From Shimia gijangensis (GTDB lineage: Bacteria > Pseudomonadota > Alphaproteobacteria > Rhodobacterales > Rhodobacteraceae), in NCBI RefSeq assembly GCF_900142085.1, contig NZ_FQZQ01000003.1, positions 1 through 64,000 on the forward strand: a stretch of DNA of 64,000 bases. The letters run 5' to 3'. Each line of letters opens with the position of its first letter. Position 1 is the first letter of the stretch. The position numbers and the translations under genes are program-made. This document shows positions 17,054 to 21,610 of the stretch, one piece after another. Below the pieces are notes generated by a model. It was not told where the DNA came from. It searched no databases and saw only the letters and a program-made list of their open reading frames with translations.

Positions 17054-17335
17054 ATGAAGACGTTAATTTCCATCGTTGCATTTTCCGCCTTGCTGGCGGC
17101 ACCGGCTACGGCACAAACCTGGAGCAGCAATGCTCCGAAAATCGGCCCAGTGAACCAGCCCGAAGGGCTGTTGATCCAAGCCTATCCAACTTCGTCAAAC
17201 CATTGCCAGGCAGGGTATCAGCCCGTTGTCGTCGGGGGCGTAATTTGTTGTGGTAAACCCAATTCTGCTGCACCGGCTCCGACGCAGGTCTCATACACCG
17301 CAAGCTGCCCTGCGGGGACCAAAGGCTGTAGCTAA
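17054..17335 (+). CDS. Small secreted cysteine-containing protein
   Basis: A 93-residue exported protein. A signal peptide ends at ATAQ (about residue 21). The mature part has five cysteines (HCQAGY, VICCGK, ASCPAGTKGCS) and Ala/Pro spacers, suggesting a small disulfide-bonded periplasmic or surface protein. It is monocistronic with a strong ribosome-binding site (GGGAGGGG) and a GC-rich hairpin just after the stop. I do not recognise a named family. Confidence 0.6.
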   Translation: MKTLISIVAFSALLAAPATAQTWSSNAPKIGPVNQPEGLLIQAYPTSSNHCQAGYQPVVVGGVICCGKPNSAAPAPTQVSYTASCPAGTKGCS

Positions 17336-18152: not shown

Positions 18153-18521
18153 ATGCGTAACGCAGCACTGACTTTGGGTATTATCGCCGGAATAATCGGC
18201 ATGTTTATTGGTTTCTTCAGCTGGGGTTACACCGATCTGACCGAACGCTACAACGAAGTTGGCGAGATTTTCGGCACCGTGGACAATGTCCAACTGGTAA
18301 AAGCTGGTGGATTGCTGGCGCCGTTATTGGCGATTGCTGGCGGCGCTATGGCACGGGCACGCGCTCTTTGGGGCGGAGGACTACTGCTTTTGTCAGCGGT
18401 GGGAATGTACGCGGCCTTTGGCTTTAACGTCTTTACGATGTTCCCAATCTGCTTTGCCGGGCTTGGCGGGGTGCTGGCCGTGGCAGCTGGTAAACCGGAC
18501 GAGCCGAAGTCACATTTCTGA
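18153..18521 (+). CDS. Small integral membrane protein
   Basis: A 122-residue membrane protein with four hydrophobic segments (about residues 5-25, 49-66, 70-88 and 92-112) and a charged linker YTDLTERYNEVGEIFG between the first two. No enzymatic motif is visible. The ATG has AACGAGGACGATCC upstream. It may be co-transcribed with the ArsC-like gene; its end overlaps the convergent DoxX gene by 12 bp. I do not recognise a specific family. Confidence 0.65.
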   Translation: MRNAALTLGIIAGIIGMFIGFFSWGYTDLTERYNEVGEIFGTVDNVQLVKAGGLLAPLLAIAGGAMARARALWGGGLLLLSAVGMYAAFGFNVFTMFPICFAGLGGVLAVAAGKPDEPKSHF

Positions 18522-19064
18522 TTGGGTGCGCCGTGCCAATATCGCGTCGACAGATAGCGGCCCGGCGCCTTTAACCACTAGAACAACCAGCAAAAACACC
18601 CAGAACGCGCGCTGATCCATAATGGCGCTGTTTTCAAAACGGTCGAACCATGCGCCAACCGTCACTGCATCTGCATGATGTCCGACGATGTCCGTCAGAG
18701 ATTGCAAGACGACAAATCCGATCATCCCCAGTGCTGACAGACGGGTCAGTAGCCCCAGAACAATCATCACCGGAAGAATGAATTCGGCCCAGGTACCTGC
18801 GGTGACGATGGCCCAGTGAAAAACGGATAGCTGAGACGTGTCATAGCCTGCCGCCTCAAGCGCGCGTGGAAATATCTGAACATAGGCCCCGACCGAAGGT
18901 TGAAACAGGCCCAGAATGCCATTGCCCAATTTGGTGAGCCCGGAATGCCAATAGTACCCCACAAGCACTGCTGCAAAGACAAAGCGTGCCAATGTGGGCA
19001 GAAGCCAATCGACACGGTTTACCCTCGAGAAGACAGAATTATGAAGTGATATCAAGGCATTCAT
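18510..19064 (-). CDS. bufD: DoxX-family membrane protein of the bufferin cluster
   Basis: A 184-residue DoxX-family protein with four transmembrane segments (starting near LPTLARFVFAAVLVGYYWHSG, then about 84-104, 112-132 and 155-172). DoxX proteins regularly accompany DUF2282-DUF692-DUF2063 genes in bufferin-type RiPP operons, and here the gene follows the DUF2063 gene by 9 bp. It may help export, folding or redox handling of the modified peptide; that is inference. The symbol follows the buf scheme and is given by position and family. Confidence 0.82.
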   Translation of the reverse strand: MNALISLHNSVFSRVNRVDWLLPTLARFVFAAVLVGYYWHSGLTKLGNGILGLFQPSVGAYVQIFPRALEAAGYDTSQLSVFHWAIVTAGTWAEFILPVMIVLGLLTRLSALGMIGFVVLQSLTDIVGHHADAVTVGAWFDRFENSAIMDQRAFWVFLLVVLVVKGAGPLSVDAILARRTQSEM

Positions 19065-19073
19065 GGCGTATCC

Positions 19074-19823
19074 TCAGATGGTTGCTGTGGTGATGGCATT
19101 GCCGGTCAGCAAGAGTGTCAAAACGGTGCTGAGATCGAATTCCGGAACTTGGACTGTGGTCTCACTTGCGGCCTTTCCCAAAGTCGTGCCGGTCATCAGC
19201 GCGGCCACAAACCGGGCGCCTCCGGGCGGCAGCAAATGCGGTTCCGGGTCAAACTCATGACGTGTGACCAAGACATCCTGTGCCTCAGAGCGAGGTTTTG
19301 GAGCGCCTTTAACCTGATTGAAGGCCCAGATGTCGTGGATGGGCCAGGGGGACGACAAAACCTCCACCGAAGGTGCGATCCCAATACGCAGTGTCTCAAG
19401 TTGTGCGGCGGGGATTCGCGCCAGTACATCACCGCCCGCAGTTTCGCAGTCGGCGGCGTGGTATGAACGCCTCAAAGCCAATTCTAAGTCTGCCACATCT
19501 CCAAGATAGCCAAGGTGCGACAAGGGCTCAAAGCCGCGAAGAAAATCAGGAAATTCCGCGCCATAATGCATCATCATCGGATTTGACGGAGGGTTCCGGC
19601 GCAGAAAAACACCAGCAATGGCTTTGAAGTTCTGCGTGCCCAGCAATTTGAAAACGACTGGAAAACCAGCTTGCAAAGCTTCCGTCAGCGAGACGGCCAC
19701 ATTGTTGCGATAGACATCGAACCGTCGTCCCGCAGGGCGCCCTTGCGCATCTTTCAACCCATCCGGAACATTCAGGTCACTGTCCAGAATCGCGGTGCGG
19801 AAATCGGTTTGGGTGACGCTCAT
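19074..19823 (-). CDS. bufC: DUF2063 partner protein of the MNIO enzyme
   Basis: A 249-residue protein with the N-terminal DUF2063 domain (RRFDVYRNNVAVSLTEALQAGFPV and FLRRNPPSNPMMMHYGAEFPDFL), known from BufC/HvfC-type proteins that work as partners of DUF692 enzymes and help recognise the precursor peptide. The C-terminal half is a second helical/beta domain. Its ATG overlaps the bufB stop by 4 bp, as expected for subunits made together. Although Pfam once called the domain DNA-binding, the context argues for a RiPP-processing role. Confidence 0.88.
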   Translation of the reverse strand: MSVTQTDFRTAILDSDLNVPDGLKDAQGRPAGRRFDVYRNNVAVSLTEALQAGFPVVFKLLGTQNFKAIAGVFLRRNPPSNPMMMHYGAEFPDFLRGFEPLSHLGYLGDVADLELALRRSYHAADCETAGGDVLARIPAAQLETLRIGIAPSVEVLSSPWPIHDIWAFNQVKGAPKPRSEAQDVLVTRHEFDPEPHLLPPGGARFVAALMTGTTLGKAASETTVQVPEFDLSTVLTLLLTGNAITTATI

Positions 19824-20677
19824 GCGGCCACCTGTTCCAGCGCCTTGGACGCGCGTTCGGCTTCGGCGTCAAGCTCGGGCCATTCAGGCACGTCATTGTC
19901 CCACTCAATCAGGATCGGACGGGGCCCGGACAAAGACAGAGTATGATCCAGCAGCGCCCAGACTGGATCAACCACCGGTTTGCCGTGGCTGTCGATCAAC
20001 AATGGTGCGCCGTGATCGTCGGTGTCCTCATCATGTCCACCCAGATGAATTTCCCCAACCAATTCAAGCGGGTAATCGTTGATGTATGAGCGGGGATCGT
20101 AGTTCAGATTGGTGGCCGATACGAAGACGTTGTTCACATCCAACAGCAGCCCACAGCCGGTACGCTTGGCGACTTCCCGCAGGAAATCCGGTTCAGACCA
20201 GGTGCTTTCAGCAAACGCCAGATAGCTTGACGGATTTTCCAGCATCATTTGGCGACCAACCGTGTCTTGAAGTTGATCGATATGATCCGCAACACGGCTC
20301 AGGGTGTCGTTGGTATAGGGCAGGGGCAGAAGATCGTTCAAAAACGCGCTCTCGTGGCTGGACCAGGCCAGATGCTCAGAGAACACAGTGGGGTTCAGCC
20401 AGTCGACCAGATGTTTCAAGCGCGTCAGATGGTCAGCATCCAACGGCCCTTCGCCGCCAATCGACAAGCCAACACCGTGCACCGAAACGGGAAATCGTTC
20501 AGCCAACAGCCGCAACTGCGCCAGCGGGCGCCCTCCGGCCCCCATATAGTTTTCGGCATGAACTTCAAGCCATGTCACGTGCCCCGGATCACCCATAATA
20601 TTTTGAAAATGCTGCGGTTTATAGCCAACTCCCGGCGCGTTGGGTAATTGGGGGAACCGGGAAGTGACGTCGAACAT
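19820..20677 (-). CDS. bufB: DUF692 MNIO peptide-modifying enzyme
   Basis: A 285-residue multinuclear non-heme iron oxidative enzyme of the DUF692 family, related to MbnB of methanobactin synthesis. The TIM-barrel motifs are clear: GVGYKPQHF, WLEVHAENYMG, VHGVGLSIGG, FSEHLAWS, LENPSSYLAF, LLLDVNNVFVS and IHLGGHDED, with the conserved His/Glu/Asp/Asn metal ligands. Family members convert cysteines of DUF2282 precursors to thiooxazoles. The ATG at 20677 follows AGGAAAGCCCC; the longer frame lacks a good site. It lies between the precursors and bufC. Confidence 0.92.
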   Translation of the reverse strand: MFDVTSRFPQLPNAPGVGYKPQHFQNIMGDPGHVTWLEVHAENYMGAGGRPLAQLRLLAERFPVSVHGVGLSIGGEGPLDADHLTRLKHLVDWLNPTVFSEHLAWSSHESAFLNDLLPLPYTNDTLSRVADHIDQLQDTVGRQMMLENPSSYLAFAESTWSEPDFLREVAKRTGCGLLLDVNNVFVSATNLNYDPRSYINDYPLELVGEIHLGGHDEDTDDHGAPLLIDSHGKPVVDPVWALLDHTLSLSGPRPILIEWDNDVPEWPELDAEAERASKALEQVAA

Positions 20678-20702
20678 AACAGGGGCTTTCCTATGATCCG
20701 GG

Positions 20703-21005
20703 TCAGGCTGGCAGGTCACGATCCAAGGCTTCAAGCGAAGGTGTTCGCATTTTGCCGTCGGCCGTGTCCGGCAATTCGATGGTCAGACAAGTGCCTTCTT
20801 CGACCAGCATCCATGCATTGCCTTGATAATCCGTTGACGAGGTTCCGGCGCAGGTGGTGCCTGGTCCCGCAGCACAGCCATTTTGGCCCGCTTCGGCAAC
20901 ACCAAAACATTTCTCTTTTTTTCCGGCCTGTGCCGATTGGCTTTGAGCGATCAAAGCGGTGGCAACAGCACCGGCAATCGCCGCAGTTTTAAGAGGTCTA
21001 GACAT
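20703..21005 (-). CDS. bufA1: DUF2282 bufferin precursor, copy 2
   Basis: A 100-residue precursor of the DUF2282/BufA1 family. An N-terminal Sec-type signal ends at SAQA (about residue 27). The core has four cysteines at 33, 44, 52 and 73 in the family pattern [22 protein letters not shown], plus the conserved DYQGNAW segment. Cysteine oxidation by the MNIO enzyme gives a copper/metal-binding peptide in studied members. The gene lies 25 bp upstream of bufB. The start at 21005 drops 15 residues lacking a signal. Confidence 0.88.
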
Positions 21006-21098
21006 TCGCGCGTCCCTTTTTGTTGAATATCTTAAGAATTTTGAAACCATTTGATGGATTCAGGGACAGCCTAGCACAATCAGGCCGTTTTTCGTCAA

Positions 21099-21128
21099 AT
21101 CACCCCGACGCGGGAGCGCCGGGGTGAT
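21099..21128 (-). terminator. Hairpin between the two bufA genes
   Basis: Nine-base arms (ATCACCCCG and CGGGGTGAT) flank an 11-nt loop just after the first bufA gene. There is no strong U run, so it is more likely a partial terminator or an mRNA 3'-end stabiliser that raises the level of the first precursor. Confidence 0.55.
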
Positions 21129-21137
21129 AAGGTTAAT

Positions 21138-21443
21138 TTATGCTGGCAGGTCGCGCTCAAGAGCTTCGAGCGAGCCTTTGCGCATAGAGCCGTCTGCCTG
21201 TGCGGGCAGTTCCATGTCCATGCAGGTGCCTGCGTCAACCAGTTTCCAGGCGTTGCCCTGGTAGTCCATGGTCGAAGTGCCTGCACATGTGGTGCCGGGG
21301 CCTGCTGCGCAGTCATTCGCACCAGCCATTGAAACACCATAGCATTTTTCCTGGCCTGCTGCGTTGGCAGCTGTGTGGGTCGTTGCGGTCAGTGCTGCGG
21401 CAACGGCGCTGGCGACTGCGAGGGTTTTTACTGTGTTCGACAT
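21138..21443 (-). CDS. bufA1: DUF2282 bufferin precursor, copy 1
   Basis: A 101-residue precursor, first gene of the cluster. A signal peptide ends near NAA (about residue 28). Cysteines lie at 34, 45, 53 and 74, with the same motifs as the second copy ([23 protein letters not shown]) and the same tail SLEAL-x-RDLPA. The leader differs more than the core, so the pair diverged under selection on the modified part. The ATG at 21443 follows AAGGGAGACC. A stretch of 230 bp without genes upstream holds the promoter. Confidence 0.88.
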
Positions 21444-21610
21444 TGGGTGGTCTCCCTTGGGTAAGTTACTCATTCGGGCCACTGCTTCGAGTGGCATGAG
21501 AACAGACTAGGCCGGAGAAACCCACACAGACCAATCACGGGGCCGTGTATCACAAGCCCGTCAGGTGACGTGACGGTTCTGTGAAGATTCCAGCACTGGA
21601 AGGTGGGAAA

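Follow-up and report, generated by a model that had tools for sequence, protein, structure and literature searches.

A bufferin operon of Shimia gijangensis with an old pair of precursor genes and signs of their unequal expression

The stretch of DNA analyzed here (the window) comprises 64,000 nucleotides of the marine bacterium Shimia gijangensis (Rhodobacteraceae), positions 1 to 64,000 of contig NZ_FQZQ01000003.1. On its minus strand, five co-oriented open reading frames (ORFs) at 18510-21443 encode two DUF2282 precursors, called copies A and B, an MNIO enzyme, a DUF2063 protein and a DoxX protein. Probably, this is a Buf1-type bufferin operon, in which the precursor gene was duplicated early and the copies then became unequal, with A as bulk copper buffer and B as low-dose variant. 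The five genes are:

21138..21443, minus strand: bufA copy A, DUF2282 precursor of 101 amino acids with the canonical core, the proposed bulk product (PF10048, 84.1 bits)
20703..21005, minus strand: bufA copy B, second DUF2282 precursor of 100 amino acids with NGC replacing NDC at Cys2, the proposed low-dose product (PF10048, 75.8 bits)
19820..20677, minus strand: bufB, MNIO (DUF692 / PF05114) maturase of 285 amino acids (PF05114, 345.9 bits; NF050167 MNIO_BufB, 369.8 bits)
19074..19823, minus strand: bufC, DUF2063 partner protein of 249 amino acids (PF09836, 89.5 bits, cut-off 27.2)
18510..19064, minus strand: doxX, DoxX-family membrane protein of 184 amino acids (PF07681, 30.2 bits, cut-off 23.6)

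This tight, co-oriented layout had been described in a previous sequence-only reading of the window, and its coordinates proved exact: each of the five ORFs lies at that place and strand and has a Pfam match above the cut-off, which is 22.4 bits for DUF2282. The distances are 132 bp between A and B, 25 bp between B and bufB and 9 bp between bufC and doxX, and bufB overlaps bufC by 4 bp. The filing of the locus as bufferin-type (Buf1), with two precursors per one MNIO, is supported by the Pfam matches, by the NCBIfam model NF050167 MNIO_BufB (cut-off 310 bits) and by a search of the genome, which returned one MNIO match and three DUF2282 matches (A, B and a copy C on another contig). Since a single MNIO was matched, A, B and C would share it or some of them would remain unmodified. 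BufC scores 40.1 bits against the NCBIfam HvfC model (cut-off 142) and the doxX product is likewise under the cut-off of the HvfX model. The nearest solved chain to BufB is 3bww; for copy A and BufC, no solved relative was found at the thresholds used. Read by eye, the precursors have a charged N-terminal start followed by a hydrophobic stretch and A-x-A, a candidate Sec signal peptide.

The firmest new result concerns codon usage and synonymous rates, which are signs of a high expression of A and an ordinary expression of B. The codon adaptation index (CAI) was calculated with weights from 17 genes of the genome of the window, chosen by eye around a confirmed L14 match; all are genes which we take to be ribosomal, L14 alone being confirmed. 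Copy A has a CAI of 0.779, copy B of 0.572, bufB of 0.577, bufC of 0.539, doxX of 0.455, thrS of 0.667 and copy C of 0.455. As references, ribosomal genes lie at 0.70-0.84, and for 48 ORFs of the window the median is 0.563, the maximum 0.781. After recoding with background synonymous codons, the value of A was reached in 0 of 1000 draws and that of B in 598 of 1000. Among the 14 pairs of the genus, A exceeds B as well as bufB in all 14, and B exceeds bufB in five. Furthermore, among 22 single-copy loci the CAI of A is above that of bufB in 21, so that the high value of A is the old state. Across seven close genomes the mean number of synonymous substitutions per synonymous site (dS) is 0.35 for A, 0.96 for B, 1.12 for bufB and 1.32 for both bufC and doxX, i.e., synonymous sites change about threefold slower in A than in B or the enzyme genes.

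These data bear on plain gene dosage as an alternative, in which two equivalent bufferins would be made for one enzyme without any division of labor. If more peptide were the purpose, A-like codon usage would be predicted for B, which is not observed.

The second asymmetry is a structure between the two precursor genes:

21099..21128, minus strand: 13-bp GC-rich hairpin directly after the stop codon of A, without a T run (z = -4.96 against 100 dinucleotide shuffles)

Here, 40 loci were scored, of which 38 were counted after exclusion of two C copies. A strong stem (z < -2) follows A in 30 of the 38 and in 23 of 25 within the genus. The letters of the stem differ among related species (e.g., genomes G000, G171, and G172) and the pairing is kept. 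After B, z < -1 was found in none of the 15 A/B pairs, a set from which the pair of genome G007 was excluded. In G007 no hairpin is present between the two copies (z 0.85), and the stretch after its second copy has a z of -1.56.

In addition, a candidate promoter lies in front of B:

21068..21076, minus strand: extended -10-like element TGCTAGGCT before B, a tentative internal promoter (7 of 9 lineages)

A -10-like element is located 54-76 bp before B in 13 of the 15 pairs. Counted by lineage, with one of the seven close genomes kept so that the 15 pairs become nine lineages, this corresponds to seven of nine, and 500 shuffles reach at most five. A consensus scan of the region revealed no sigma-70 consensus promoter before B.

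The following mechanism would fit this arrangement. A would be an exported four-cysteine peptide, produced in amounts far above those of its enzymes. Its central cysteines would be converted to thiooxazoles by BufB and BufC, and it would soak up periplasmic copper. The hairpin would set A apart from the rest of the operon through protection of the mRNA upstream of it or through partial termination of transcription. B, situated past the hairpin and right before bufB, would be made at about the level of the enzymes via read-through and perhaps from its own small promoter; most likely it would be modified by the same BufBC and represent a low-dose variant that is dispensable to the cell. The chemistry of bufferins, their role with copper, the central cysteines as targets of modification and a disulphide formed by the outer two have been described (Antoine et al., 2025; PMC12452194). 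By analogy, we infer that both peptides are modified, exported and copper-binding; their actual amounts and what B adds are predictions from the genes. The sequence-only reading had offered different expression or different metal preference as reasons for two substrates. The former gains sequence-based support from codon adaptation, synonymous rates and the position of the hairpin, the latter has no direct support.

B might also remain unmodified and serve as a decoy, a regulator or a chaperone, binding BufBC or copper while lacking thiooxazoles. A low predicted level matched to that of the enzymes would suit such a role, as would the tight linkage to bufB, with 10-32 bp between B and bufB across the 14 genus pairs, and unmodified extra precursors are named as an open alternative by Antoine et al. 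(2025; PMC12452194). We nevertheless regard this as quite improbable, because all 14 genus B copies keep four cysteines, which points to a modified peptide.

At the protein level, mature A and mature B are 73% identical in the window and 69-76% identical across the genus pairs. That four cysteines occupy matching positions and that both copies end in the common tail SLEAL[ED]RDLPA was borne out. The supposed difference of the leaders and of the surroundings of Cys1 was overstated: the leaders share K-T...AVA.AL and the Cys1 region is mostly common (EKC[YF]GV..AG.N). In this genome, A and B do not differ at all between Cys2 and Cys3. Among all 28 copies of the 14 genus pairs, the four cysteines, four of the seven residues between Cys2 and Cys3 as well as DYQG, W.LV, ADG and RD.P are unchanged, and for DUF2282 sequences at large little conservation beside the cysteines has been reported (PMC12668002).

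The most informative difference between the copies is the residue before Cys2: B carries Gly in 12 of the 14 pairs, His in one and Asp in one, and A carries Asp in 13 and Glu in one. The residue after Cys1 is Phe in 11 of 14 B copies and Tyr in all 14 A copies. Fixed in B are Leu after Cys4 (14/14) and Pro replacing the Gly of A before the tail (14/14). Outside these pairs, Asp before Cys2 is the rule: among the scored loci, all 26 of the family, all 5 of the class and 59 of the 62 named ones have it, and the other three have Gly (two) or Ser (one). The scored loci are those counted as single-copy, i.e., 26 of the 30 best-scoring family loci, 5 of the 8 best-scoring class loci and 62 of the 80 named loci; the others held two precursors or did not fit the pattern. 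Since two of these 62 single-precursor loci have Gly, this residue is compatible with the sole bufferin of a cluster.

Paralogue-specific residues beside Cys1, Cys2, and Cys4 could indicate that B has changed in metal or partner preference, binding another metal or handing copper over to another protein, which would give the pair two tasks. The long-lived, separate B lineage under purifying selection is consistent with this, as is the response of a related operon to both gold and copper (PMC5413113). Set against these points, the Cys2-Cys3 segment is the same in A and B here and NGC is found in single-copy precursors, and a change of preference appears unlikely to us. A farther-reaching version of the dose split, which is conceivable if doubtful, would be a peptide-modifying enzyme with two lasting substrates separated by dose: a metal buffer made in abundance next to a bufferin that is scarce, linked to the enzyme and has a task of its own (e.g., a high-affinity or partner-specific copper carrier), the ratio being set by the intercistronic hairpin.

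The history of the pair was followed in a midpoint-rooted tree of 56 precursors, built on a short alignment and leaving many forks unresolved. A supported branch (96/94) separates the 15 B copies, from the 14 genus genomes and G100, and the two C copies from the A copies, which are intermixed with the single copies. The pair of G007 arose by a duplication of its own (100/95), and C stands beside B of G172 (99/95). These branches suggest that the precursor gene was duplicated early in the genus and that the pair is old. A recent tandem duplication was ruled out, as the B copies cluster together across species. On the bufB tree, which has some weak forks, the presence of B requires five changes and fits one gain with four losses, so B has probably been lost several times. 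In G159 and G160, the 280-bp gap between A and bufB keeps, by eye, a B-like ribosome site and start region; BLAST support is restricted to the hairpin stretch of G159 (E 0.001), and a decayed B in both genomes is suggestive only.

Both A and B are under purifying selection. The mean pairwise ratio of non-synonymous to synonymous rates (dN/dS) of the mature parts is 0.053 for A and 0.079 for B in the seven close genomes, and 0.103 for A and 0.085 for B in all 14, where 26 of the 91 B pairs were not usable. These ratios rule out B as a pseudogene.

For plain gene dosage, the same four cysteines and a similar core and tail in A and B, the tolerance of Gly before Cys2 in two of 62 precursors that are alone at their locus as well as the repeated loss of B implied by the bufB tree can be put forward. 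On the other side stand the residues fixed in all B copies, Leu after Cys4 and Pro for Gly before the tail, together with the Gly before Cys2 of most of them. Furthermore, a pair that looks more like dosage is the independent one of G007, with both copies of NDC type and no hairpin between them. Separate duplications with both copies of NDC type are present at the G007 locus (L108) and at L153. For the Shimia pair, we consider dosage unlikely and keep to a bulk product A and a low-dose product B.

Several findings weigh against this division. The CAI weights come from 17 genes of one genome and were applied to all genomes, and seven of the 14 pairs are close kin. The recoding test alone is not unique to A, since thrS also beats recoding (0/1000). 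In the single-copy genome G160, the CAI of A is 0.66 and that of bufB 0.67, and in G007, whose pair is independent, the first copy (0.60) scores below the second (0.79). The slow synonymous change in A could also result from a constraint on its mRNA. A consensus scan found no intrinsic terminator after A, and as the hairpin has no T run either, protection or processing of the mRNA and partial termination are equally likely. The hairpin also stands between precursor and enzyme in single-copy loci and therefore did not originate with the pair; it has the appearance of an ancient means of keeping the precursor above the enzyme, with B on the enzyme side. Finally, the pattern of the B promoter was defined only after inspection of the sequences, and two of nine lineages lack it.

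The distribution of the pair was surveyed in samples of the genus, the family and the class. Within the genus, DUF2282 and an A-type copy are each present in 25 of 25 genomes, two copies within about 460 bp in 14 of 25, and A, B and C together in two of 25; the identity of BufB across these genomes is 78-100%. A survey for DUF2282 pairs beside one DUF692 gene had been recommended, and in these 14 genomes the pair recurs. This, together with mature copies that are 69-76% identical, rules out an assembly or sequencing duplicate. In the family sample, with one genome per genus, DUF2282 was matched in 106 of 149 genomes and more than once in three (the genome of the window, G007, and G100). In the class sample it was matched in 135 of 385, and among the matches listed two copies within 500 bp occur only in the genome of the window. 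Adjacent precursor pairs are rare outside the genus. Among 80 named MNIO loci, 15 have two precursors by pattern, 63 one and two none. Of these 15, 14 are A/B-like in Shimia or Shimia-like records and L153 is a separate NDC-type pair. Many of the named loci appear to belong to genomes already counted in the genus (e.g., L133 and G171:C8), so they are no independent sample. The BufB of the window is 90% identical to that of an uncultured Shimia and 83% to that of S. thalassica CECT 7735, in a search of named records that may omit those very near its own genome.

Two loci of this survey differ in their MNIO gene. At L109 (G100; apparently the same as L143, Shimia litoralis), the bufB beside the A/B pair has an in-frame stop and is broken or carries a sequencing error. 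L110 (G164:C5, 2194-4217) holds a second MNIO gene with 42% identity to the BufB of the window, preceded by a different cysteine-rich small ORF, Buf2-like by eye, and followed by an ORF at the bufC position.

Copy C is a third, stand-alone DUF2282 gene of the B lineage with an NHC motif, present at L111 (G000:C38:26144-26284, minus strand) and L112 (G171:C15). An integrase-like gene lies about 1.7 kb from L111 (the integrase model under its cut-off, DUF6538 above) and 4.7 kb from L112, and the neighbors are otherwise unlike. Copy C may be mobile. Its product either depends on the distant BufBC or stays unmodified.

Upstream of the operon, a further element was found:

21531..21553, minus strand: conserved element GTGATACACGGCCCCGTGATTGG upstream of A, a putative operator (at most four mismatches in 70 of 87 loci)

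The element, GTGAnACACGnnCnCGTGAnTGG with the core CACG-N4-CGTG, starts about 65-135 bp before the first precursor among the matches listed and 110 bp before it here. Of 91 loci, 87 were scored against one mononucleotide shuffle per locus, with a pattern written from Shimia loci that are themselves among the 87; no shuffle (0/87) came to four mismatches or fewer, or ever under six. Six of the ten non-genus family loci L114-L123 have four mismatches or fewer as well. At three or fewer mismatches the genome has a single site, so C is not under the element at that stringency. Further upstream, at about 21558-21576, a CGTCA-N7-TGACG dyad was seen by eye only. A control of the Caulobacter sigma-F type was rejected, as NrsF (PF06532) has no match in the genome of the window and is matched in the Caulobacter control.

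The upstream neighbor of the operon is a threonyl-tRNA-synthetase-like gene (23627-21678, minus strand). At the far end, a small plus-strand ORF without Pfam match (18153-18521) stands tail to tail with doxX. Outside the operon, a plus-strand ORF of 93 amino acids (17054-17335) contains five cysteines and begins like a signal peptide.

Two questions have been named as open (Antoine et al., 2025; PMC12452194): does one MNIO modify several bufferins, and what makes a cell keep more than one? Here, Shimia represents a natural experiment, with genomes holding A alone, A and B, or A, B and C and with closely related BufB proteins. The asymmetry of codons and hairpin makes "two precursors" a testable claim about dose, and A, B and C are ready-made substrates for the tolerance of BufBC beside the modified cysteine.

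A comparable arrangement is the puf operon of Rhodobacter, where a hairpin follows a strongly expressed gene for a small protein and sets it apart from scarcer downstream products. The puf operon encodes photosynthesis proteins and its mRNA stability has been measured, in contrast to the ribosomally synthesized and post-translationally modified peptides of Shimia, for which the split is a prediction from sequence. The Caulobacter operon CC3254-CC3257 (DUF2282-DUF692-DUF2063-DoxX) has the same four families in the same order (PMC3511200) and is presumably the Buf1 bufferin operon of PMC12452194. It differs in having one precursor per operon, with a separate operon CC2907-CC2906-CC2905, and in its control by sigma-F/NrsF, whereas two precursors share one operon here. 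The same four families also form the GIG operons of Cupriavidus metallidurans and Legionella pneumophila, which are metal-responsive; as far as described, Legionella carries its extra copies in homologous operons at separate loci and not as adjacent precursors (PMC5413113).

The newness implied for twin precursors does not hold in kind. Tandem bufferin precursors, with more than one precursor gene per MNIO and several substrates suggested for it, are already in print (Antoine et al., 2025; PMC12452194), although the available part of that paper gives no taxon, paralogue history, expression asymmetry or hairpin for them. A search of the open-licence literature, in which "bufferin" also matches "buffering," returned no description of the Shimia pair or of a split by dose. 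What appears to be new here is the asymmetry in dose, together with the history of the two copies, in an operon that is itself of a known kind and carries a long-lived second precursor.

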